NCBI RefSeq assembly: GCF_009389715.1
Contig: NC_052399.1
Coordinates: 21,414,646 to 21,478,645, forward strand
Length of the DNA: 64,000 nucleotides
Reading direction: 5' to 3'
Source: Phoenix dactylifera
Taxonomy: Eukaryota; Streptophyta; Magnoliopsida; Arecales; Arecaceae
Below, piece by piece: positions 2,408-48,838 of this stretch. Both the position numbers and the translations under genes were made by a program. How positions within the stretch are numbered: the first letter of the stretch is position 1; each line of letters begins with the position of its first letter. The notes under the pieces are model-generated. The model saw only the letters and a program-made list of their open reading frames with translations. It searched no databases and was not told the DNA's origin.

Positions 2408-3974
2408 GTTCATCCATTTCCATCTGTCATCTCCTCAGAGGAATACAAAACTAGGATGGGCATTAGGTCTGCAGGCTTGTGCTGATGCTGGTGCTGGTGG
2501 ACATTCAACAGTGAGGTTTAATTGACCAATATTCTCTGTTGATTCTAAATTATCTGAAGATACACCTCTTAAGGATAATTATAACTGATGCCTGTTTGTC
2601 TTATTCAAGTAATTGTCAGTTGTTTGATATTAGCTAGATTCGTTTCAAAGATATTTGGCAGGGTTATCAGATTTTGTCAAGAAGCAAAAAGGAGGAGATC
2701 CCAGGAGAAGAAAAGGGTTCTATTTTCTTTCTTTTGTAATTAAATTAAACTTAATGCAGTAGAGGGGCAGTTTTGTTCAACAAGTTACAAGTTGAATGAC
2801 TTCATGAACATGGTTAAAACAGTGCAGAAATATTTCTCTTTCTCAGTACTGAAATATAAACATAATAGGAGGAGGGCAAGTAAATAGCATAATGTAGTTG
2901 TAAAATTAGGTTGACCAGTTATTTGGATTCTACAAGATAGCCTGGGTTGAAAATAATGAATATCATATGAACTTGCTAGAGGACCCACAGCAAGGTTGAG
3001 TGAATGTTGTCATCGCTCCAAACCTAATCCGTGAAGAGATCTGGTGACCTGACGAGGTCTCTGCTCGCTAATCCAAATTCAGGCTTGGCATTTAGCAGCT
3101 CTTTCAAGGAGGAAAAACTTACAGGCAAGAGTGTTTGACAAAGCATGCCTTACTGAAGAAAAAAAATGAAGTGTTTCGCCTCCCCCAATCTGGGAAGGGG
3201 ATAGATAGGATTGAAGCCATTTGAATGCCCCAGGAGCAGTCATTCAGCACTCATTTTCCTTCAGGGGCTAGGTCATTGTATAAAGAAGCCGCGAGAACCC
3301 ACGTAGGATTCAGATGCACAAGCCAACGTGAATTTCAAGCTCATGAGATTGAATAGAATTTTCATCTTGATCGAAAACAAAAGCCAGTAACTAGCAGACC
3401 AGTGAATTTTATCTCTGTATTACTCCATTTGCAGGTTTATGGTTTTCTGAGTGGCCTAGCAGAAACAACTTGGTTGCGGTCATCCTTCACCTAGAGTTGC
3501 ATGGAAACCTCAACCAACAAAACATATGCATTCGATGCACGTAGAATCTGCCTGATAGCACTCAAGAATTGTGACATCAGCTTTTAATGTCAAGCAGCCC
3601 GTTGCCTTGAAAGTTAAAACCTCTCCTGCTCGTTGAGACTTGAGAGTTGAGACCCTGCTCGGCGACATATATATATATATATATATATAATATAATTCCA
3701 TTTGCCACCTGTCACCATAAGCCCATTATACTATTTAACTAATTCTATCCCATCTATTTGATCTCACCAAATTATTAAAAAGATATTACGAAGCACAGAC
3801 TACTTTTGATACAGTTTAGTGGGAAAAAAAAAAAACTGATTATTGAGATTCATAGTTGTACATACTCAACTGTGACATATTGCCATCTCTATTTAGTGAT
3901 GCATTAATTACTACATTTATTTCTTAGAAGCACAAGTCATCATTGTGTAGAATAGATAGCTTAAATTCATTTCA
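2408..3974. other. Convergent intergenic spacer (two 3' ends)
   Basis: The spacer lies between the kinase stop and the FLO7-like stop, so both genes end into it. It is AT-rich, with an (AT)n run at 3666-3689 and no ORF with coding character. It presumably contains both 3' UTRs. An A/T-rich stretch near 2735-2750 could serve as a kinase polyadenylation region, but no exact signal is claimed. Confidence 0.6.
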
Positions 3975-6900
3975 TCATGCAGCTTTCCTCGTCAGCTGAT
4001 CTTTTGATGTGCTCTCAAAGATCTTATCGGCATTGCCAACTTCAAAACCATCACGTCTATGAAATTCCTTGATCTACCAGTGGAAAAAAACAACAACAAT
4101 TAAAGGCAGGAGAGATGCAGAAGAATGGCAAGACAAAGTTTAATACTTGGATGCACAGACGGGGGACTAATAACAAAGTTAGTATCAACTACCAAGACAA
4201 TATGAAGTAATGCCTGCTAATTTGATACCATATAGTCAAAATTAGCATTTGATAGAGATTGAAAGTACTAGTGTTCAGGTTGCCTGATGTTAAGGCCATG
4301 ATCTAGCAGCTATTCCAAAAGAAAAAGATTGCAATGAATTACCCCACCTATTGAGATTAATAGAATTTTGGGTTAAATTCAGAAAGTCATTCATTCCGGA
4401 AGCAGCAAAAGTACCAATGCTGGCAAATTATTAATGAAATCATCAATGTAGTAACTGGTGCCTGCAATCAAAATTTTAAGGAATCTTCAAGTACAAAATA
4501 ATCCGAAATGTTCACCGGGATGTTGCTCTTTTCACTTCGCAGAAATGACATCGTGTTCCTCCCCCGCCCCCCCCCCCACCCCAAAAAAAATAAAGAAATA
4601 TATGGCGCTCTTGACTATAGAAAGGTATCGTTTTCATTACATTAAAGGTTTTTTTTCATATTAGTCCCTGAGAGATACCTGTTTTGCATATTAGTTCCTC
4701 AATTCTTTAAAATTGCAAATGAATCCCTGAAAGAAATACAGTCCGTTTCATATAGGTCCCTGCAGTGCCATCTAGTTAAACACAGCTGGAGCAGATATTT
4801 GGAGTTTTAGCTGATTGGCATTGGATTATTATCTTGAAGTTTTTACCTTAAATTATATAACGTTATTTATTTATGTATTTTTTTCATATCAGTTTTTGAT
4901 TATTTGCATACCAGTCCCTTAGTTTCCCCTGAACAAGATGAACAGGCAGATTCAAGAAGAAGCATTTGTTATAACATCTACAATTTTCGAGTTACGGAAA
5001 TCCTTGATGCGTAGAACCAAAATATAAAAACTGAAGATTCAAAATGCATAGCACATTTTATATGCATGTTATGGAAAATTAATTTATTGTCTCTTGGACT
5101 TCTTGCAAAGTCTTAAGTAGATGTAGATACCTACTGATGTGTCATATATGACAAATGCATATATATTTGAATCAAACAGTGGCTCCATTAAGAACGTAAA
5201 CCTAAAGACTGTTGGGAAAACAAAGAAATCCAAACCTCATCATTTGCTAAATTTTTATACTGAGGTAGCACAAGCCGTTCTGCAAATTCGATGTATGAAC
5301 AAGGAACAGATTCGGTGACCCCATCAGCAAAATTAAAAGAAGTTGAATCAGCCACAGTTGAACTTTGCAGTAGAAGGCCATCAGGGCTCACTATCAATAA
5401 CAACAAAGAAAAAAAGACCTGAGAATGCTTGTTTTGCAATGCCTGAAAACCATAACAACAGAAGACAGTTCTAAAACAGATCTGACTATTACCTACTAAA
5501 CAAAACATTAGACTACTGTTTTTGTTAATGCAAGATGACACATTAAGCAAACAGGAAATATTGTGAAATTATGATATCATATCAATAAACAACTGGATGA
5601 GAAGTTGTGACCAATCTTATTATGTGGACAAGTACAGCTTGAGGAAAAGGGTCAGATTTGACGAGGAAAAATTAACTCCATAAGATGTAAGGTTATCTAG
5701 TAGGTAGAAAACCTATGAGAACTTGCTACAAAGCATATGTCTTAACCTCAGGTTGCAAGGAGCCAGAACATTTTTTGGCTACTTTCTACGGTACCAGAAG
5801 CTTATATTTTCTGCATGGTTCAGAATGTTGGGCCATATGGGTGGTCCAAACAAAAAGATGAACATGGAAGCAATGAAAAAGTTGAGATGGAAGTGTTGTG
5901 AAGCATAAGAAATCAATATATTATAAGACATGCAGGATTTATATCAATTGAAAAAACAAAGTGACAGAATTGATTCAAATGTTATAAAACTATGGACATA
6001 TGCAGTGATATTTTGAGATGACCATGGTAAGGAGAGATGATGGAATATGTGATTCGAAGAAAATCTTAGATGATTGGATTAAGTTTCAAGAAAAGATTTG
6101 AAAAATTGCAATAACACCAAAAGTAACACTTAATAGGAATGATTGACAAATGAGAATTCATGAAACCAACCCTAAATAATTGGGAGAAGGCTTGATGCTT
6201 ATATAGATGTGATTTTCAATTTTACAGTTTATGGACAAAAATTAAACATTCCACCTTCTACACTGAAGCATGAATAAATTATATGCATACACTGATAGCA
6301 TGTCAAAGCAGGAATCAGAGTTATACATGTGGCATGAACTGGCAGGTGACTATACCATGCGTTATTATGTCAATATTGCTGCTCAACTCAACCCAACTCC
6401 ACTAAGCCTTTCTCCCAAACTAGTTGGGGCCAGCTATATAAATCCTTTTCCTCCATTCCGCTATGTTTAGGGCCATACTTTTTGAAAGATTCAATATTGA
6501 CCGCTTTGGCACAAAACAATTCAAAGAGCAAATGCATTTTACACTATTTCAAATAGACAATATCCCACAAGCATATAGATAGAGTTGTTTTTTTTTTAAT
6601 CAAGACTACTTTATATAATTAGTTTCTCAAACATGGAACCAGACAGAGTTGATTGCAGACCTTTTAATGTCCCCCCTTCAGAATTCAGTTTGAATCCATG
6701 ATTTTCAATGAACTCATTCAGGCTTTTGATGTTTCTAATATGAGATTTCAGCTGATGTGTGGAAATAGTGACATGATTCAATGCATAACCATTAACAAGA
6801 GTCCATGCAGCATATTCACTTTCCCTGAAACAGTAAACCAAAGAATAAAATAGAATAGCCAAAACAATGTCAGCTCAATAACAAAAAATACCAGAAAATG

Positions 6901-9900
6901 CAGGATTCAACTCATTTCCTTCAGCAACTGTTAAAATAAATTCTGTGCAGCAACTTAAAACTAAGTACTTGTGATATTATACTTCAGAGTTCAGACTGCA
7001 AGGCAAACACCATCGAACAAGATGTCGCACTTGCCAGATTTACTGCTAAAAAAGTACCTAGCTAATTGTTGATAGTCAGAATATAAAGGTTTCTCCCATG
7101 TTAAACATCCCAATGCACTTGCGATGGATGCATGTTCGTTCCCATTACCAGATGTTTTGATGCATTTCCTTATCACTTCCTGCATGCACAGGCAATAACT
7201 GATGGTCATAATCTACAAATAAAAATTGGATACAGGATAAAGAAAGACTGGTATTGGCAAATAAGGTAAAATAAAGGTAACCACAATCAGCTTACAAACT
7301 GAAAAGAGAATGTTACAATATGCAATGATCAGTAAGATAAAGTTGAATATACAATACCTTGCACTAAAGAATGCTGGTATACTCATGTAAAATAGCAAAT
7401 TACAATAGATTAGTAGGTGGTTCAGGATCATTTTAGCATGACATCTGAGACTCGGTGTTATTAGCAGCTGAAACAGACTTCTCTTTTTAACTGGTCACCT
7501 TTAACACACGCTATTAGTTTAGAAATTTGAAGATAATCATGATCACTCAATAGCTCTGTCAAAAAAAAATGTACGCATGAAAATGCCAAAGAAAGACTAC
7601 TTTATGTCCCTCTTCCAACAAGCAATATATTTGGAGGCATATGCAGCTGCTTTGGTGTATGTGTGCCCCAGATGTGCTGTTTAGAGCCTAAGGAATCATG
7701 GTATGCGGCAGGACAGCATAGCTGTTGCTCAGATACCCCTACAGGCCTAGGCGGCTTGCACATGTGGCCCCGGTGGAATGCAGTTGGGCAGAAAATGCAA
7801 CTCAAGCATTATTGAGTGCCCCAACCTCCTGTGCCTTCTACCCCCCACTATGTCTGCTTCCCATTCTCCTTTTCTGTCCTCTCCCTCCTCCACCTTTCAC
7901 CTCTGCCACCACCTCTTTCTCCCCCACGCCTACTTGTCCTCCTGTTCAGTCTAGGCACCCACTTAGGTGCATGTATACAGCATTCATATTAAATCACACA
8001 CAGGACAACAACATATCGTGGCTAGTTTTTAGAATTTTGCAATATTTCCATGCAGATCATATTGTTGTCAAAAGGTCTTGGGTCTTGTGGTGTATGTTAT
8101 TTATGGATGAAAAGTATTGATTGATGAAGTGAGGTACATATACACACAAACAAAGAGAGAGAGAGTTTGGGTGGGAGGGTTTGACGGGGGAGTTGTGGGA
8201 GGTGGCGTGAGTTAAATAATTTAGGCCTCATGGTGTATGTTATTTTAGGCAGTATTAACTGCTGAACTGTAGTCTATATATCTTCTCAATTTAAATTCAA
8301 GCTCCTTGTTTAACCTCATTTTGATGGGAAAATGCACCTTAAAGAAATTATTTTCATAATGATGAACGGATATATAATGCAGTTATTTTTACACGCATTT
8401 AAAAATGAAATGAGGAATGATCTAATCACTTACTTCAATCAATGATATCAACTACTTCTCTCCCAAGTCCCAACTCGCTTGCCTAATCTAGAACCAATGG
8501 ATTCTCAGGGCTGTGTACAAGGCTTCAGCCTCATTTCTCCAGGAGGAAAAAAGCTAGTTAGCCAATTCATTTGTTGAATCCTTTTCCCATTGGTTATAGT
8601 TCAGGTTAATGCCTCAGTCTGTAAGATCTTCGACATATTTCTATTAATGGAATTATACTAATAACCAGAAGAATACTTAATGAGTCATGTCTCAATTAAT
8701 TATACATGTTGCTTTAGTCTTTTCATTTTTTAAGATATGGTCTGTTGTAAATCTACACAGTTTTCATTGGTTCCTCTGTCAATGTCATGTTGAATATTTG
8801 TCCTCCTAAACTTCATCTAAAATACTCATTTCCAACATATCCTGCCTAGAAATATCAGAATCACTTCAAATGTCAAACTCATCTTTTGTTATCAGAACCA
8901 CTTATATCCATCATCTTACCAAACAGCTAGTAACAAAATCAGGATTCATGATTGTCTTGTAAAGGGAAAACTTACAAAATCAGTAATTCAGTTAATAAGA
9001 AGCAGATCAGAAAATGAAAACATCTCAACGAATGGGAGCAATTCAAGCAATTTACAATAGTATGCCATATATTTATAAAAGATCATAAACTATACATGAA
9101 GTAACTGAAATTTAATAAAAAAAAGGCATTATTGAGTTTGTAAATATTCAAGGCAAAATCATTTAACGAGCAATTTAAGGATGATTATAGAATTTTTCAA
9201 CAAGTCACAGAACTTTGCCACTAGTTTTAACAGAGCATTTCAAGCCTTATATGTACCTTGTAAAGGCCTTCATTGAAGTCTTAAAAAGGCATGCAACAAT
9301 GACAAAACTCATTTGAAATGTGTCTCATTCGAAATGTATATCCACTTCTTCAACCTTGCTCTAGCTCAATCAAGCATATCTATTTCAATCTTCTTTTTTT
9401 TCTAAATGACAAACCCAAGATAGCAAATTGATCATACCATGTGCATAGGTAGATTATATTGCCGCCTAACTTTGATATTCTTATTTTATTGTGGTATTCA
9501 AATTTATAATTTCTCATGTGATTAAGAGTTGCATCTTAAAGCCCACAACTTTACTGAATGTTTGTAGCACAGCATCCTTATATAGGATGCATCATCTGTT
9601 TGGCAAATCAATCAGTCGCACCAATTCTGGATGGCACAAAACTCTGCAAAAATCAATACTCTAGAATTATCCACAGACCATGACAGTGCTACAAATTTTC
9701 TTTTGCAGTCTCATGCTGAGTCTCTAATACATTTTTGGGCTCTTGCACATTATGTAGACAAATCAAACCATTGTATCCAATCTGGTGGCTTAAAATCAGT
9801 ATGCAATTATGTTTTGAGACCACAACAAGAGGTATTTCACCTAAATTGATATAAGATGGCCAAACTAAGTCTTAATGATCTTCAAGATGTACTTGTCAAT

Positions 9901-40100: not shown

Positions 40101-42019
40101 AAGATTGTGGATTTACCTCATCCTTGAATTTTACTTTTCAAGAGATTGTCCTTGGTGATGCTCCCTGAACCAAAATTTATCTGCTAATGAATGTTTTATT
40201 GAAGCTCATTCAAATGGGGTTGTTTTGGGGAATTCCACCATCTCCTCATAGAGTTTGTTTCCTCTGGAGTCCAGAACTTTCATCTTTAATACTTTCTCCA
40301 TCCTGTTATTCTGATTATTTAGTCTTTTGGTTGATTAAACTAGCTCCTCACAAATGTCTTTCCTAGGGGTGGTGTCGTCAAATGAGCTGGTCATTTTCAT
40401 CAAACTGCATGTTGCTTTTTTCATACTTTTATTCTTACTCCTGCCATTTTCTTGAAAACAATTGTTGCCTTTCCCCCTCTTAAATACAATGAATTCTTAA
40501 TTTCTAAGACCACACTTGTCTGAAATCTGTTATTGTTCAAAATGGTCATGAGTCTTGTAAGATGATTGCACTACCTCTTTGCCAACTTCCTTCTCCCAGT
40601 GGTGTTAGCTTTCATTGATTAATGAGCTGCCAGCCTATTATTACCCTGATTCCTACTCCTGGATTCTCATCAAAATAGGTGGTTCCCCCCTATGTATTCT
40701 TGATTTTTGATCCTTTGCATGTCTGAGATGTCATTTCTTTAAAAAAAATGTTGATGAATTTCTTTGTTTTGTTGGTATACGGGTCATCTGGACTTTGGAA
40801 AATTTCCCTTGAAGTTGCAGTTGTGTGTTTTACTTCCTTATGAATCATACAGTGAAGAAATCGGTACTTTGAGCTTCTGATTTTTGTGTGCTGCTACAAA
40901 CAAAATAACCTTGCCTCTTTCAGAAATAGCCAGTCAAGACAATGAGGCTGGCTTTATCTTTATATGAACTGGCTGATTCTGAACACCGACTGAATTGGGT
41001 CAATACTTGTCGTGCTTGACTTAAAAAAGTATTTACAATTTGTTTGCTTGTTGTCCATCCAAGCCTAAAAGTTCTTCATAACCATAACCGTAACAAAAAA
41101 AAAAAAATCCTATATTCTTAGGTCCATATGCTATGGTTGCTTGATCTTCTGTTTCAAGTACTTCTAAATGCCAATGATGTTGCACAAACCAAGTAGATCT
41201 AGTGCATTACTTATAGATAGTCAGTATGGAGGCATGTCATCTTGTTATCAAGTTTAAGATGGTGGGAACCTTCATTAAGAAGCATTCTGAGTGCATTTTC
41301 GAAGATTAATCCTATGTGGAAAGAAGTAAATGATACATTGCAACAACATAGATAAGTCAGCTAGGCTTATAACCAAGATATTTTTGTTGGATTCTTGAGA
41401 GTATTCTTGGCTATAATGCAATAGTCATCTCTTATCTTTCACGATAGTTTTTCTTCTCTATTTTCATTTTTGGAACATTTATAAGAAGGTAATTTCCTGT
41501 ACTTGTGCAGAATATAAAGAAAAGCAATCCTGGAATGGCATTTGCAGATGTTGGGAGGGCTTTGGGGGAAAGGTGGAAAAAGATGTCAGGTACTTTTCCC
41601 TTACACAGGATACCACAATCTTTCTGCTTAAGCAACAACATGTGTATATGCATTTACATGCTGCCCTTGTGTATCATGCTGGTCATCAAACAGCTACACG
41701 TCCCAACTCCCGACGTATCTGTGTGAGGTTCTGGTTGTCTGTGTCCATCTCCACCATGTTTCCAACTCCCCTTTACACAATTTGCATTTGCTGAAGTCTA
41801 TTTCCTTTACAGTATGCTTTATATGTTCCCCCCTCGGGGTGGACTGCTTTATGTTTGAATGCATGGAGCTGTAATTTGTTACTTCTTTGTGTAGCTGAGG
41901 AGAAGGAGCCATTTGAGGCAATGGCACGGGCGGATACTAAACGTTACAAGGAGGCCATGGCTGGCTATAAGAGTGGCGGTCCTGCAGTCACTGTAGATTC
42001 GGGTGATGAGACGGAATGA
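25185..42019 (+). CDS. SSRP1: FACT complex subunit SSRP1
   Basis: Sixteen exons: 25185-25238, 26289-26474, 33004-33109, 34380-34516, 36665-36748, 36838-36929, 37126-37234, 37447-37533, 37651-37743, 38692-38889, 38986-39137, 39220-39367, 39459-39557, 39684-39866, 41511-41589 and 41895-42019. They total 1932 nt, or 643 aa, the usual plant SSRP1 length, and every phase closes. It begins [17 protein letters not shown]. The N-terminal SSrecog/PH domains span about residues 20-260 ([36 protein letters not shown]). The middle Rtt106-like double PH part lies at about 260-440 ([32 protein letters not shown]). An acidic stretch follows at about 470-515, a Lys-rich nuclear segment at 516-555, and one HMG box from [15 protein letters not shown] to about residue 625. 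Family role: with SPT16 it moves H2A-H2B during transcription and replication. Intron 2 is 6.5 kb and repeat-filled. Confidence 0.97.
26850..27535. mobile_element. Non-autonomous element with TACCGG-rich ends and polypyrimidine core (SSRP1 intron 2)
   Basis: The block is GC-rich inside an AT-rich intron. The flanks are full of 'accggta/taccgg' and 'gaaccg' phrases (27370-27535), and the middle (27065-27365) is a long C/T-rich stretch. The right end is 'ggttcagctaaccttga', which inverted reads tcaaggttagctgaacc. Other elements with the same vocabulary lie at 31160-31740 and 32044-32222. I take them as one family of small dispersed elements. The class is unknown, and the left border is approximate. 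Confidence 0.45.
27515..27646 (+). repeat. 68-bp tandem duplication at the element edge
   Basis: Copies 27515-27578 and 27583-27646 differ at only a few sites. Each starts ccgaccggtt and ends ccatgataatgc, with period 68. The duplication spans the element edge and adjacent intron DNA, which places it after the element's insertion. Confidence 0.85.
31160..31740. mobile_element. Second TACCGG-family element, inverted, with polypurine core (SSRP1 intron 2)
   Basis: The left part reads caaggttcgtcgaac and then atgtaccgaaatagg. The core 31260-31610 is strongly G/A-rich, and the right part has ggtaaccggctggtccgat and ggtttggta phrases. The core strand is opposite to that at 27065-27365, so the two elements appear to be in inverted orientation. 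Long ORFs across the core are low-complexity and are not genes. Confidence 0.4.
32044..32222. mobile_element. Short TACCGG-family MITE-like element (SSRP1 intron 2)
   Basis: The element is about 180 bp. The left end is aaggtttgcca and the right end is gttgcgaacctt, which inverted is aaggttcgcaac. The inside is dense in taccg/cggta phrases (cagtaccggtcataccg, gataccggtatgg-like strings). It is the smallest member of the family seen at 26850 and 31160. Confidence 0.5.
32256..32512. mobile_element. MITE with 17-bp terminal inverted repeats (SSRP1 intron 2)
   Basis: The left end is gggtgtgcttggtgttag. The right end, reverse-complemented, is ggggtgtgtttggtgttga, matching at about 15 of 17 positions. 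Total length is about 257 bp, the interior is A/T-rich and there is no ORF. The left flank is TAA, but no matching flank on the right was evident, so superfamily (Harbinger or hAT) is undecided. Confidence 0.65.
37043..37075. repeat. Long G tract after a pyrimidine tract (SSRP1 intron 6)
   Basis: A run with more than 15 consecutive G, then cgggg and agggg, follows about 40 bases of C/T. It is 50 bp upstream of the exon at 37126. It could form a G-quadruplex in DNA or in the sense RNA, and it is a likely assembly trouble spot. Confidence 0.8.
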
Positions 42020-43184
42020 AGGGCCATTCCTCTTAACAGGGCCCAATTATCTGCAGCGCTGAGACAATGGATGCTTTGGTATTCTTGTTTGTTGTACTTG
42101 AATAAGTCCATGTTATTATCGATATATGAATAATTAAACATGAATTGTATTCTGATTCATTAGAAAGGAGGCAGGACACCATCAGGTCAGAATGTGGTGA
42201 TATTTCATTGCTTCTTTCCCTCCCTCCATCCCTCTCTCCATCTCTGTGTGTGTGTGTGTGTGTTCCCCCCAGAAAACGGAGTAATAAATTGGTGCTGGGA
42301 ATGATGCTTTGCCTTGAAAAATTTTACGACCTTAACTGGTGATGAAGCATCTACTCTATTGTGCTGTATAGACATGGAAGGAAGCTGGATACTACATAAA
42401 CAATTTTATTTAAGTATCTGTTCAATTTCAGTGACAGTACTTAAATGAAATGGGATGGGGATCAAGTGATTCTAGCTCGCTGCTGGTGTTTAGGCTATAG
42501 CAGAACTTTCTTCAGCATGTCTGCTTCTATGATGTCTGCCATGCAACCTACCAGCAGATTGGACCATTTTTGATCAAAGGATCCTGCATAGCTGCGACAG
42601 GAATGTTGGAAACCTGCTTCTCTAGCTAGGTGAATTGCTTGCAACCATCCCTCTATTGAAGGCTTCTGTTCTCTTGTATTCTTTTTAACAAAGTTGGTGG
42701 GCAATGATACGATGAAAATAATAAATAACCAAAGAACATCATTCACTTTTATAGTTCTATCTGCTATTTTCCTTGAACAAAAACAGAAAAAAAATCGAGA
42801 GCTGCGACCCGATCATTCAATTTGTGAACCAAATTCCTGAGGCACAGATTATAACAGTCTGCATGCTGGACCAAAGATCCAATAGCTCCGTGCACCCAGA
42901 ATGTGGGCAAGGTTTAGATAATAGCATCGAATCCACATCTGGTGGGGATGTTGGTTTTTTGAACACTCCCGTTTTCTTATAAAAGAACAACTGAGGACCT
43001 TGCTTCTTCGTGAATGGTGTAAAAAAAAAAGTGCTTGTTGTCTAAGTAGTAAGTATTGACCAACTCTATTAATCTTTTTATAATAAATGGTGACTATACG
43101 GGAGTGTGGTGTCTGAGAGTGAAGATGTGGACTCGCACTCAGGAGTGTTAACGATTTTATTTGCAGTCCCCAGACAAATATGAG
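42020..43184. other. SSRP1 3' region and spacer
   Basis: It contains the SSRP1 3' UTR (an AATAA-like 'gaataattaaac' near 42128 could be the polyA region) and a short (GT)n run at 42244-42263. No gene was recognised. The last 11 bp, ACAAATATGAG at 43174-43184, are the left target duplication of the LINE that follows. Confidence 0.6.
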
Positions 43185-43688
43185 CTGTTGATATCCTGGA
43201 GGACAACTGGGTGACTGAGTGGCCGCTATGTAGACTCCTGACTTTCGTGGACACGGCCAGATTAGCGGGGCATAGGGTCCGTGAGCTGATTGGACCTGAG
43301 GGGAGTGGATGGAGGACAGGGATGAACAGGAAGGTTTTCGGGGATTAGCTAGTGGAGAGGATCCTAGCCCTTCCCCCATCGGAGCGAGGAGCCTGACAGA
43401 TTGGTATGGATGCCGATGGGGCAATCGAGGGTGCAGGTCAGGGACATTCATGCATTGATTGGCAGGGAGCCAGTCCGACAGATCGATGGTGGTTGGATTT
43501 GGAGAATGCAAATACATCATCGGGTTGCCCTCTTCATCTGGAAGCTGGCATGGGGCTGCTTACCAACTAGGAGGATGTTAGCTGGGCGAGGTGTTCGGAT
43601 CCCTTCGTACCGTGAGGTATGCCAGGATACAGAGGAGACTATAAACCACGTCATCATGGAGTGCCCCAGAGCAGTGCAGATCTGGGAG

Positions 43689-45041
43689 CACTACAGAAAA
43701 AAGGGGAAACGCCGACGCATATACGGAGCCAAAATTTGCTGACGCTTTTAAGAAGCGTCGGCGGTCACAATGCTAGATGGGAGCCGGGTGATTAGACGAC
43801 GCTTAAAAGTTTCGTCGGAGTCCAAATAAACCACTTCAACTCGATCGGCCCCACCCCACCCCACTCCAACTCGATCGGCCCGCTGCCTGCCGCCCTCCTT
43901 ATCCCTAACCCTTGATCTGAAGCCATGGCCATGGTCCAGCTCCAAATAGGGGAAGGAGATGCTCCAGCCCCAAAGAAAAGTGACGGTCCTTTTCTTCTCT
44001 CGTCCTCCTCCTCTCTCTCTCTCTCCCCTCTCACTATTTATATTTCTACTTTGTTTTAGGGTTTCGATTCGGCGGAGAGGGGATGGCGACGGAGGAGAAC
44101 AGGGGATGGCGATGGAGAGAGGGTATAAGAGCACCGGCGAAGAGCCGCACATCCTCGCCGTCGACGATAGCTCCATCGACCGGAGGGGTTTTCAAATTTC
44201 ACCATGGTGCTGGAGATGCACTATGATCCTGCCTTTGTAGTCTCGGTCCAAAGTCCTGTAGGTGCCTCTCTTCATCTTTCCTTTCCAATTTTTTTTTCCT
44301 CCCCTTATTATTTATCTTCATTTCTTTTCCTTTTTTTATTATTTTTGTTCCCTTTTTTTTTCATTTTCTTTTCTCTTTCCTTTCTTCATTCTTTCTTTTT
44401 TTTAGATAAATAATATAATTTCAGATAACAAACTTTGATTGAATTTCTCTCTCTCTCTCTCTTTTGCAGTGACGGCTGTGGATAGCGGAAAGAGAGCTCT
44501 AGAGCTTCTAGGCTAGGTATGGCCATTTATTTAAATCTTTTTAAGCTATATGTATCGAATATATTTTTTCTTAGGATTAATATGTGAATATAAGATTTGG
44601 GTTTACTAGATGTCGGAGATGACCGGGTACGAGCTCGCCAATAGATTTCGAAATAGTGATGGAAATGGAGCCCCCTCCCTTGCCTCTTCCTCTTCTTCTT
44701 TGTCGCCTCCGAACGATCAGGGCTTATAAGCCATCCTCAAGGTCCCCAGAGATTTGTAAATATTTTTTTTAAGAAAAATATTTACAACGATGCTTATAAG
44801 CATCGGAATAGAGTATTTTTTTGTAGAAATAGGGATTTGCCGACGCTTTATAGAATTTGCCGACACTTTATTCCCTGTTTTTGCCGACGCTTTCATGTAG
44901 CGTCGGCAAAAACTTTTGCCACTCCGGTATCGCCGACGCTTTTGCGACGCTTTGATTTGTGTCGCCGGAACTTTAGCCGATGCTTATAAGCGTCGATAAA
45001 GGTTATAAAACGCACCGGAAAAGATAAGTTTTCCTATAGTG
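43689..45041. mobile_element. Non-autonomous CACTA (En/Spm) transposon, 1353 bp
   Basis: The left end is CACTACAGAAAAAAGGGG and the right end inverted is CACTATAGGAAAACTTATC, the classical CACTA termini. Flanking triplets are GAG (43686-43688) and AAG (45042-45044), consistent with a 3-bp target duplication with one change. Subterminal regions are packed with 'gccgacgctt' and 'aagcgtcgg' motifs in both orientations (43710-43810 and 44840-45000), as expected for transposase-binding repeats. No transposase is present, so it needs a helper. Removing it rejoins the LINE frame (…VQIWE then KSSPIPFHQALES…), so it inserted after the LINE. Its interior carries host gene fragments, listed next. Confidence 0.9.
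44106..44705 (+). pseudogene. Captured fragments of a type-A response regulator
   Basis: Three receiver-domain pieces lie in native order inside the CACTA element. Piece 44106-44190 reads EEPHILAVDDSSIDRR, the exon-1 motif with the acidic Asp pair. Piece 44470-44516, directly after a TTTTGCAG acceptor, reads TAVDSGKRALELLG. Piece 44609-44635 reads MSEMTGYEL, matching the CMPxMTGYELL motif. The spacing agrees with the separate exons of type-A ARR genes (cytokinin signalling repressors). The phospho-acceptor Asp region just before CMP and the rest of the receiver are absent. Between pieces the sequence is unrelated or decayed and ends in stops. The fragment cannot make a working receiver. It is evidence of gene capture with introns. 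Confidence 0.75.
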
Positions 45042-45900
45042 AAGAGCTCCCCTATCCCTTTCCACCAGGCCTTGGAGTCAGTGGAGGAGCTGTTACACTA
45101 CTTGAGTGAGGCCATGAGGAGACCCAGCACAGCCGAGGCAGGGGTCATGAGGGCATACCTGGCCTACCATATTTGGTTGGACAGGAATGCCCGCATATTT
45201 GAGGGTAGGGGATCATCGCCGAGTATTGTGGTGCGCAGGGCCTCCCGCCATGCGACAAAGATCATCACGACTACCTCGTTGTTTACCTCCGGGATGATTA
45301 GGGATATTTGGGATACCCACTCCGCTGCTACAGCGCCTGGTTTTGCCCCCGTCTCTTGGGTACCCCCATCCTCTGGTTATCTCAAAGTGAACTTTGATGG
45401 TAGCTGGCCGGCGGATGGAGCACACGGAGGTGTGGGCTTTGTGATTAGAGATCATCTAGGTACGCTGGTTGTAGCTGGAGGATGACGTACCACAGGCCGG
45501 GCCGTCATTGAGGTGGAGTTGCAAGCAGCCTGGGAGGGCATGTTCTATACGAGGAGGATCCTGGGAGCCGATAGGATTTTTTTAGAGGGGGACTCCGTCA
45601 TGGTAGTTGACTGGATACGGGGTGGATATGGATGGAGATGGGCACCCGCGGCTTCGCGAGATCCGCGGTCTGGCTAAGGAGTCAGGCTCCTTCCAGCTTG
45701 CACACATTTATCGGGAGACGAACGATACGGCAGACTGGGTCGCTTTCTTTGTGACCCAGCATTTCGGTGGAGTGGTTTGGACGAGGGTCGGAGATATTCC
45801 CACCCCTTGTATCATCTTTTTTCTTTTAATTTGGCAAGTTGTACTCACGTGAGAATTATATGAATGCCATTAATTTTTAAAAGAAAAAAACAAATATGAG

Positions 45901-46785
45901 TAATTAAATTCAATTTGGTTCAATTGACATGACCTATGTGTCACTTTAAAGGTTTTCTTTTTTTTATTCTTGATAAAGGAAAATAATTTATAAAACATCA
46001 CTTGACGGAGACGGACATTGATTTGATATCTTTTCAATTCCATAATAATTTTAATTAGATTTCTCTTTTAGAGGTTCAAAGTTTGAACCATGCTAAACTT
46101 TTATGAATATGTTTTTAATAATGTAGGGTTCTATATATAGAGTAGCCTAGGGCAAAACTCTCCCTAAGTTAGGATAATTTTTCATGAATCAACGCATAAT
46201 AAAAACCTCATGATCACCAAAACTCAAGTTCATAATAACTTGTTGATTTACAGAAATTTATTTGGATTAAGAAAGTAGATAAGAAAAATCTTTAGCATCT
46301 AATCTATGTTGATTTTTTAAAAACTTATTTCATATCTAAAATATTGGGAAGTAATCACGTGCATTTGCATGCGCACTGCAACCAGTCAAAATAAAGGCCA
46401 AGAAACAAAACAGAAAAACAAAAAGGAAGTAAACAACAGAGACCAACCGCCCGTTTCTCTGGCAGGGTGGAGACCACCAGCATTGGTTCTCCCTGCCCGT
46501 CGTTCTCTCGCCCGCCAACCTTATTTCTATTTTGAGCCACACCCTCCCTTTATATAAACCTCCTCGCCATTGTGACCCCCATTACAGGCCGAGCTGACCA
46601 TGATCCTGTCCTCATAGTCTTCGTGGATTCGGTCGGTTGGTCTTGTCGGGTCTGGTGGTCTCCTAGACTATACCGATCCCCCAACACCACCACCCCAAAG
46701 CTCCAAAGAGTTATAGGAGAGAAAGACAACCAATAAAAAGAGATCATCGCCAACAGGAGAAGAAAGGAGCTATAAGCTCCACCAA
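45901..46785. other. Upstream region of the pectate lyase gene
   Basis: This is AT-rich DNA to about 46420 with no ORF of interest, then a GC-richer proximal promoter. A TATATAAA box lies at 46551-46558, about 230 bp upstream of the start codon. The right end is the presumed 5' UTR. Confidence 0.6.
46551..46558 (+). promoter_or_regulatory. TATA box of the pectate lyase gene
   Basis: TATATAAA follows a C-rich stretch (caccctccctt), a common plant promoter layout. Transcription would start near 46585 and give a leader of about 200 nt. Confidence 0.55.
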
Positions 46786-48838
46786 ATGACAATGGAGGGT
46801 CTTCAGACCCGACCCAGCTTCTTCCTCCTCTCCCTCTTCTTCCTTGCCTCCGCCACCCTGTCCGGCGCCAACATCGCGGAGTTCGACGACCATTGGCAGA
46901 AGAAGGCGGAGGAGGCCTTCGCCAGATCCCGTGCCGCCTACCATCCCGACCCCGAGGCCGTCACCAACAAGTTCAATAAGGCTGTCCACTTGTAAGCCCC
47001 TCTTCCTTCCTTGTTTTCCTTCCATCATGCATGGATGGATCCCTCTCTCCTTCTTCGCGTACGTGCATGATTCAGATTCATTAGGCTTGCCTCCGATGAA
47101 CACGGGCAATTACAGAAAAAAAAAAGAATTTAATTTATACGTCTTCTAGAATATTTCAACTTGTTGTTGTTGTTGTTGCTGTAATTCACCTTCTAAAAAG
47201 ACATGCAGTCTCGTTTCATTTGATGATGTGCATGAATAAATTGAAGGAATGCGGTGCATGCAGGGCGGTTTCGCAAGCCCGCAACAGCACGAGGAGATCC
47301 CTGAGGTCGGCCGGCGTTAACAAGTTCAAGGGGCCGTGCGTGGCCACCAACCCGATCGACCGGTGCTGGCGGTGCCGGGAGAACTGGATGGAAAACCGCA
47401 AGAAGCTGGCCGGCTGTGCGAAGGGCTTCGGTCGCAACGCCGTGGGCGGCAAGGACGGCGACTTCTACGTGGTGACCGACCCTTCCGACAACGATCTGGT
47501 GAACCCCAAGTACGGCACCCTCCGGTGGGGCGTCATCCAGGACCGGCCCCTCTGGATCATCTTCGCTCGCGACATGATCATCCGCCTCTCCGAGGAGCTC
47601 ATGATCAACAGCAACAAGACCATCGACGGCCGCGGGGCCAACGTCCGCATCGCCTACGGCGCCCAGATAACCTTGCAGTTCGTGCACAACGTCATCATCC
47701 ACGGCATCCACATCCACGACATCAAACCCAGCAACGGCGGCATCATCAGGGACTCCCTCCAGCACTTCGGCATCAGGACCAAGAGCGACGGCGACGGCAT
47801 CTCCATCTACGGCTCCAGCGACATCTGGATCGACCACTGCTCCTTGAGAAACTGCGCCGACGGCCTCATCGATGCCATCGAGGGATCCACCGCCATTACC
47901 ATTTCCAACTGCCACTTCACCCACCACAACGATGTACGTTACGTACCCTTACTACCAATACTAATTAATTAAAAGCACTACCAAATTTCCCTATTAATTT
48001 GATGACAAACCTCTCGCTGATGATCATAATGTCATGCATGATTCATTGGTTCAGGTGCTGCTCTTCGGTGCCAGCGATTCAAACGAGCACGACTCGATAA
48101 TGCAGATCACTGTTGCCTTCAACCACTTCGGGAAAGGCCTTGTGCAGAGGATGCCAAGGTGGGTGGTCCAAAGCAAAATAGAGACACTAGTAATTTCTGA
48201 TCTAAATTTGTATGCGAGCTAGTCTTTGAGAAAGTAAGGTTAGATGGGTGTCGATCTAATGAAACAGATAAATTCATGGAGCAGGTGCCGCTGGGGGTTC
48301 GTCCACGTCGTCAACAATGACTACACCCAGTGGATAATGTATGCCATCGGTGGTAGCCAACACCCTACCATCATCAGCCAAGGGAACCGATTCATCGCTC
48401 CTCTCATGCAATTCGCCAAGGAGGTAGGACACCACCAACGTACAACTCGCTCGGATCATCTTTTTGTTTGTTTGTTTGTTTGTTTTTTTTTCTTCTTCAT
48501 AATACACATAATATCAAGATAAATAAATGAAAGAATGAGAGAATGACGCATCCATATGGTGGAAGCTGCATGCCTCCCTGCTTGCCTGCTGAGCTGAAGT
48601 TTGGGTGTTGTTGCAGGTCACCAAGAGGGACTATGCAACAGAGGATGTCTGGAAGCAGTGGACATGGAGATCCGAGGGTGACTTGATGCAGAACGGAGCC
48701 TTCTTCCGTGAGTCGGGAAGTCCAAACACGAAGTCGTTCCACAGGAAGGACTTCATCAAGGCGAAGCCGGGGACATGGGTGAGGAGGCTCACACGCTTCG
48801 CCGGTCCGCTCGGCTGCAGAGCCGGCCGCCCGTGCTGA
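46786..48838 (+). CDS. Secreted pectate lyase (PL1 family, with Pec_lyase_N domain)
   Basis: Five exons, 46786-46991, 47264-47933, 48055-48158, 48285-48423 and 48617-48838, total 1341 nt (446 aa), all in phase. The N-terminus has a signal peptide ([17 protein letters not shown]), then the Pec_lyase_N motif [20 protein letters not shown] seen in pollen/LAT59-type enzymes. The parallel beta-helix core shows [45 protein letters not shown] and [11 protein letters not shown], then the Ca-binding part [20 protein letters not shown] and the strand [20 protein letters not shown]. The catalytic Arg region [18 protein letters not shown] is restored across the exon 3/4 junction. It cleaves de-esterified homogalacturonan in the cell wall by beta-elimination. 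Exon 2 is very GC-rich, typical of monocot genes. An alternative ATG lies two codons downstream. Tissue role (pollen, fruit, other) cannot be read here. Confidence 0.95.

Follow-up and report, generated by a model that had tools for sequence, protein, structure and literature searches.

Host gene DNA has been captured by the Pack-CACTAs of Arabidopsis and maize, and a maize element often combines several loci (PMC8903248); the published model of capture is the joint mobilisation of neighbouring copies (PMC8903248, PMC13317346). A soybean CACTA element, Tgm-Express1, holds fragments of five unrelated host genes with exon/intron structure; it is 5.7 kb long, lies in the intron of a gene, and has its pieces spliced into transcripts (PMC1947982). 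The poplar locus FERR-R combines rearranged pieces of a type-A response regulator (RR) with the 5′-UTR and exon 1 of another gene, is Y-linked and has demonstrated siRNAs (PMC7674411). CACTA elements with host pieces from several loci are already known, and the element described here, from the 64,000-nucleotide stretch of Phoenix dactylifera DNA that we analysed (the window; NC_052399.1, positions 21,414,646 to 21,478,645), joins them. With the Pack-CACTAs of PMC8903248 it shares CACTA-type ends, target duplications, a non-autonomous constitution and captured gene DNA, but it resides in another genome, carries other cargo, and joins a TATA/leader segment of the host directly to a start codon. 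Unlike Tgm-Express1, it is 1.35 kb long and sits in a LINE, and unlike FERR-R, it belongs to a dispersed transposon family. The main text of PMC8903248 does not contain the name “Phoenix dactylifera”, and a literature search, judged by title among the matches listed, returned nothing on a transposon carrying RR pieces.

The element occupies window positions 43689–45041 on the + strand and is a whole, non-autonomous CACTA (En/Spm) transposon of 1353 bp, a Pack-CACTA with host gene DNA between its terminal inverted repeats. It starts with CACTACAGAAAA at 43689 and finishes with TTTTCCTATAGTG at 45041. The 5′ terminal repeat, CACTACAGAAAAA (43689–43701), pairs at 11 of 13 bases with the 3′ end on the opposite strand, where the 3′ repeat (45029–45041) reads CACTATAGGAAAA, and these ends, starting with CACTA, are common to its relatives. 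Subterminal repeats of the GCCGACGCTT / AAGCGTCGGC type lie at both ends, at 43735–43819 (D1 and I2 of the repeat search) and, in both orientations, at 44788–45006 (D1, D3, I2, I3 and I8). The 3′ internal region, 44647–44793 on the + strand, is CACTA backbone common to elements without RR pieces, with 34 genome matches of which 7 are copies of the present family. An intact transposase is not expected in 1353 bp, and the stop-to-stop frames of at least 100 aa inside the element, of 109 and 147 aa, look non-coding by eye. An Rfam scan of the window and a tRNA scan gave no matches, nor did a search of a plasmid collection.

A 3-bp target-site duplication is the hallmark length of the CACTA superfamily, and the element is flanked by GAG on the left (43686–43688) and by AAG, with one mismatch, on the right (45042–45044). 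Joined across the element, the flanks read GGGAG-AAGAGCTC, as against GGG-AGAGCTC in related copies of the host sequence; the element locus thus holds exactly three bases beyond its paralogues in all five related LINE copies that were read (L076–L080, L080 being the most diverged) among 39 other flank matches. The GAG/AAG pair is a GAG duplication with one later change. Across the eleven copies of the family described below, the flanks show eight exact 3-bp duplications and two with a single mismatch (the window copy, L001, and L071), with the 5′ end of L069 missing; the duplications scored as exact in L002, L007, L008 and L072 allow for a changed or shortened end. The host site is an old non-LTR retrotransposon, with a zf-RVT match in the left flank (E 1.8e-14) and a weak RVT_3 match under the curated cut-off in the right (E 0.062). 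Outside the element this LINE spans window positions 43368–45482, and its right flank is matched at at least 40 places (the best 40 of 604 candidates). About 2 kb past the element, an open reading frame on the + strand (47100–47969) matches pectate lyase (Pectate_lyase_4, E 5.9e-08).

How far has the element spread? The full 1353 bp was searched against its own genome (773,078,369 bases in 2391 contigs), and the best 40 of 820 candidates were scored, so that all counts are lower bounds. At least eleven copies, the window element included, share the body, the ends and the RR cargo; the ten further copies aligned are L002, L003, L004, L005, L007 (of which L006 is the same copy), L008, L069, L071, L072 and L073. 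At least 28 further places match solely about the last 170–210 bases. The exact 25-base pattern of the 5′ end occurs at eight places in the 773-Mb genome, six of them family copies, and the same pattern written backwards at none. Pairwise likeness among the copies is 79.5–93.7%, except for L003 and L005, which are 98.6% alike. These two, on contig C120 at 428 kb and 382 kb, are 46 kb apart within the same near flanks; they are a single insertion that a local duplication copied together with its surroundings. A tree of the eleven rows, midpoint-rooted only, splits the copies at 100/100 support into two groups, and in one of them (group B: L008, L069, L071, L072 and L073) the RR exon 3 piece has given way to other sequence. 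L071 (C3:19480324-19482060) is stretched to 1737 bp by a repeated unit at that very place. Remnants of RR exons 1 and 2 are found in all eleven copies, as is the string TATTTATATTTCTA upstream of them, and the chimera is therefore older than the copies. The original prediction of a 1353-bp CACTA element with clean termini is borne out by these ends and by the copies that share them, with the proviso of the one mismatch in the target duplication; it had named termini not found in other CACTA copies as evidence against itself, and body and ends prove common to eleven.

The 3′ internal backbone (element 959 to about 1105–1117) recurs in three other CACTA-like elements read among its genome matches (L082, L083 and L084), two of which have the ends TTTTGTAGTG; within the 900–950 bases read, none of the three matches the RR pieces. 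En/Spm-type transposase is abundant in the genome, with 150 of 150 scored candidates matching Transposase_21 (PF02992; the best 150 of 534 genome candidates), which makes help in trans plausible. An autonomous partner bearing these ends did not come to light, and this counts against the reading of the family that we prefer. The locus L070 (C2:17865000-17872000), the one further stretch read that matches the 3′ end, was tried in this role and set aside, its long open reading frames being LRR-like by eye. These LRR receptor-like frames lie at about 3767–7001 of the locus, in pieces in three frames, about 1.3 kb from the family 3′ end.

The RR cargo can be traced to one native gene. RR loci were sought with a query resembling Arabidopsis ARR5, and about ten type-A-like loci were grouped by hand from exon-by-exon matches. 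The best donor is a five-exon gene, L050, on the minus strand of contig C2 at about 23.122–23.123 Mb. Spliced at chosen GT/AG sites for all four introns, it yields a receiver-only protein of 133 aa (Response_reg, E 1.3e-25); its label as “type-A” is our reading and rests on this receiver-only make-up and on the query. Three collinear blocks link the element to it: element 362–494 (79% over 134 columns, 111 bits), 705–915 (76% over 216 columns, 148 bits) and 916–947 (91% over 32 columns, 39.7 bits). A low-complexity match reaches 38.3 bits, so the third block is near noise on its own and is counted because of its collinearity and its position in the alignment. In window coordinates and on the + strand, the alignment with L050 places a fragment of exon 1, 5′ edge included, at 44073–44186, from the start codon at 44106 to ...AVDDSSIDRR and including the piece EEPHILAVDDSSIDRR (44139–44186); the residual 3′ part of intron 1, with its pyrimidine tract and acceptor TTTTGCAG, at 44404–44469; exon 2 at 44470–44516, encoding VTAVDSGKRALELLG in phase with the G before it (44469–44513); the 5′ part of intron 2, with the donor-like GTATGG, at 44517–44603; and an exon 3 fragment, TAG-MSEMTGYEL, at 44604–44636 (MSEMTGYEL being 44610–44636). 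Identity to the donor is 68 of 77 bases in exon 1, 41 of 46 in exon 2 and 67 of 76 in intron 2. Other loci fared less well. The RR paralogues on C18 and C17 match at 55.4 and 48.3 bits, where the reversed control of this set reaches 36.8, and the type-A-like loci on C20, C13, C12, C3, C403, C10 and C1 show no match at the DNA level at E 0.1, where the flanks taken for C403, C10 and C1 may miss exons 1–2. A genome search with PF00072 (51 matches, 30 loci compared) did not include the C2 donor, and the loci that it did return match the element just briefly and weakly.

Could this likeness have arisen otherwise? The peptides first noticed are short (9–16 aa) and the element contains long pyrimidine tracts, as a chance resemblance in low-complexity sequence would have it, but the two main blocks point to one native gene at bit scores that tower over those of the reversed element (31.1 bits) and of 30 doublet shuffles (at most 29.7), and the donor proline in M(S/P)EMTG is kept by the sister copies L002–L005 and L007. 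These controls refute coincidence, whose probability we put at practically nil. A processed pseudogene, made by reverse transcription and later interrupted or flanked by a CACTA insertion, would agree with the preserved order of the exons; this reading is refuted by the retained intron sequence, which comprises donor intron 2 and the last part of donor intron 1, and the pieces moreover lie within the ends of copies at different sites, so that we hold it barely conceivable. Since the homology runs through intron 2, it was genomic DNA that was copied. The original prediction, a transduplication of a type-A RR gene with three receiver-domain pieces in order, is supported by a single native donor with shared intron sequence, by the eleven copies and by the empty sites, and its pieces lie at the places given. 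Its further claim that intron positions were kept holds at the intron 1 acceptor and the intron 2 donor, and fails at their opposite ends, the intron 1 donor and the intron 2 acceptor, which are lost.

Beyond what had been predicted, the element is a chimera of three loci: the RR gene, DNA from upstream of a leucine-rich-repeat (LRR) gene, and DNA from beside a DUF4666 gene. The LRR-locus segment, at 43984–44072 (element 296–384, + strand), corresponds to C9:19761516-19761611 on the minus strand with an E-value of 2.2e-23, at 86% over 96 columns for the window copy and 95% for copy L071, and its 96.8 bits compare with 29.7 for the reversed sequence and at most 24.0 in 30 shuffles. At the C9 locus, the ATG of the LRR open reading frame lies 28 bases past the homology. 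Its product matches Pfam LRR_4 at E 2.8e-05, with 24.7 bits against a cut-off of 27, and also 30 PDB sequences, the best of them LRR proteins. The captured stretch holds TATTTATA (44035–44042) as well as AGGGTTT, and from this position and motif it would comprise a core promoter and 5′ leader. In all eleven copies it now stands directly upstream of the RR start codon.

The third contribution, at 44191–44403 (+ strand), comes from beside the DUF4666 gene (C8:4433613-4433798) and substitutes for the 3′ end of RR exon 1 together with most of the intron that follows it. Its core, 44237–44300 against C8:4433632-4433695, is 95% identical over 64 bases (E 9.1e-21), and the match extends to about 170 columns at 86%. 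An upstream open reading frame at that locus bears the Pfam DUF4666 domain (E 3.5e-36), with the matching piece about 340 bases past its stop. The whole match scores 172 bits against a reversed control of 58.3 bits and is in part pyrimidine-rich, a point to be set against our preferred account; the evidence is therefore the 64-base core. The captured-looking stretch at about 43886–43966 has no clear donor, a further point against our account: beyond the 11 copies of the family, a genome search gave for it just two matches, both short and weak (C3, E 3.5e-7; C16, E 6.6e-7). The C3 match lies about 250 bases from a CACTA backbone match and is thus probably another CACTA element.

Taken together, the locus is very probably a Pack-CACTA whose interior was drawn from at least three host loci, which was multiplied in trans, and whose RR fragment evolves as dead cargo, free of coding constraint. 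According to this account, the interior was copied from the type-A-like RR gene, from the promoter-like/5′-leader stretch of the LRR locus and from the DNA beside DUF4666; the chimera took shape in an ancestor common to the eleven copies; the copies would then have multiplied by means of a transposase supplied in trans, as we infer; and the window copy inserted into the old LINE. A transposase needs the ends and not the cargo, so the cargo may persist even where, as we likewise infer here, it has no function.

The RR frame in the element is ruined, and an intact receiver with its aspartate is absent. DNA of a different locus has taken the place of the exon 1 tail, the intron 1 donor site and most of that intron. 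A deletion of about 65 bases runs from late intron 2 into exon 3 and removes the codon of the phospho-acceptor Asp. Exon 2 has a TAG after VTAVDSGKRALELLG where the donor has TTG, while the acceptor and the GT after the exon are kept, and the TGG (Trp) of the donor before the exon 3 piece is TAG in the six copies of group A. The exon 3 piece itself reads MPQMTGYEL in L002, MPEMTEYEL in L007, and MPEMTGY followed by diverged sequence in L003/L005 and L004; the window copy has MSEMTGYEL, with Ser for the donor Pro. Exon 1 of L004 carries a frameshift. The sites that vary among the eleven copies fall in roughly equal numbers on codon positions 1, 2 and 3 (5, 7 and 9 of 26, 26 and 25 sites in exon 1; 4, 4 and 5 of 15, 16 and 15 in exon 2), with no codon-position bias. 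Differences between the copies and the native gene fall on positions 1, 2 and 3 as 18, 24 and 66 in exon 1, a third-position excess that is expected if the native gene alone is constrained, and as 7, 25 and 11 in exon 2, where this excess is lacking and the pattern weighs against our account. The TATA-like box, 14 bases in all eleven copies, could be read as selection for expression, but it is short and the copies are 79.5–93.7% alike in any case.

Does the captured segment nevertheless drive something of use? A short functional peptide, a truncated N-terminus of the receiver, could in principle be expressed from it, for a frame of 44 codons (MAMERGYKSTGEEPHILAVDDSSIDRR...) follows the captured leader. 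In the window copy, however, a 23-bp duplication (repeat D5) adds an earlier, out-of-frame ATG at 44083, neither frame has a Pfam match, and the frameshift of L004 and the evenness of the variable sites speak against a maintained product; we hold such a peptide to be exceedingly unlikely. Alternatively, the family might act as a regulator, transcribed from the promoter-like segment and yielding small RNAs for the silencing or methylation of the donor RR gene in the manner of FERR-R in poplar, an idea close to the original suggestion that the element could give small RNAs against type-A regulators if transcribed. A TATA and leader right before the RR start codon in eleven of eleven copies would suit such a role, and the chimeric make-up, type-A RR pieces joined to the 5′ region of another gene, resembles that portrayed for FERR-R in PMC7674411. 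Exact 21-mers shared with the spliced exons 1–3 of the donor number 11 in L007, 9 in L002 and 5 each in L003 and L005, besides 3 each in L008, L069 and L073 and 1 each in L004 and L072; the window copy, on the other hand, has 1 and L071 none. The RR pieces stand in one orientation, and no inverted arrangement of them that could form hairpin arms was found in window positions 41500–47000. Transitions at CpG sites (199 of 1724) are about twice as frequent as at other C/G sites (283 of 4602), which fits past methylation, but such CpG decay is usual in any silenced transposon. We consider the regulatory reading very unlikely, and its specific form, in which small RNAs from a dispersed Pack-CACTA family with a captured promoter before its RR pieces would act on the parental cytokinin-response gene in trans, slightly less likely still. 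In our judgement the cargo is inert, and the small-RNA reading is possible but unsupported.

With dead cargo in a mobile chimera as the preferred account, the element illustrates in detail how a CACTA transposon captures gene DNA, with three named donor loci, junctions that are nearly base-exact, and an empty site. The juxtaposition of a promoter-like segment and a captured start codon indicates how such elements can, by chance, build what might serve as a transcription unit. The known role in poplar of a partial duplicate of a type-A RR gene makes the small-RNA question worthwhile for an element that is otherwise ordinary; and if the action in trans were true, the family would be a transposon-borne parallel to the sex-determining RR duplicate of poplar, of special interest given that its host, the date palm, is dioecious.
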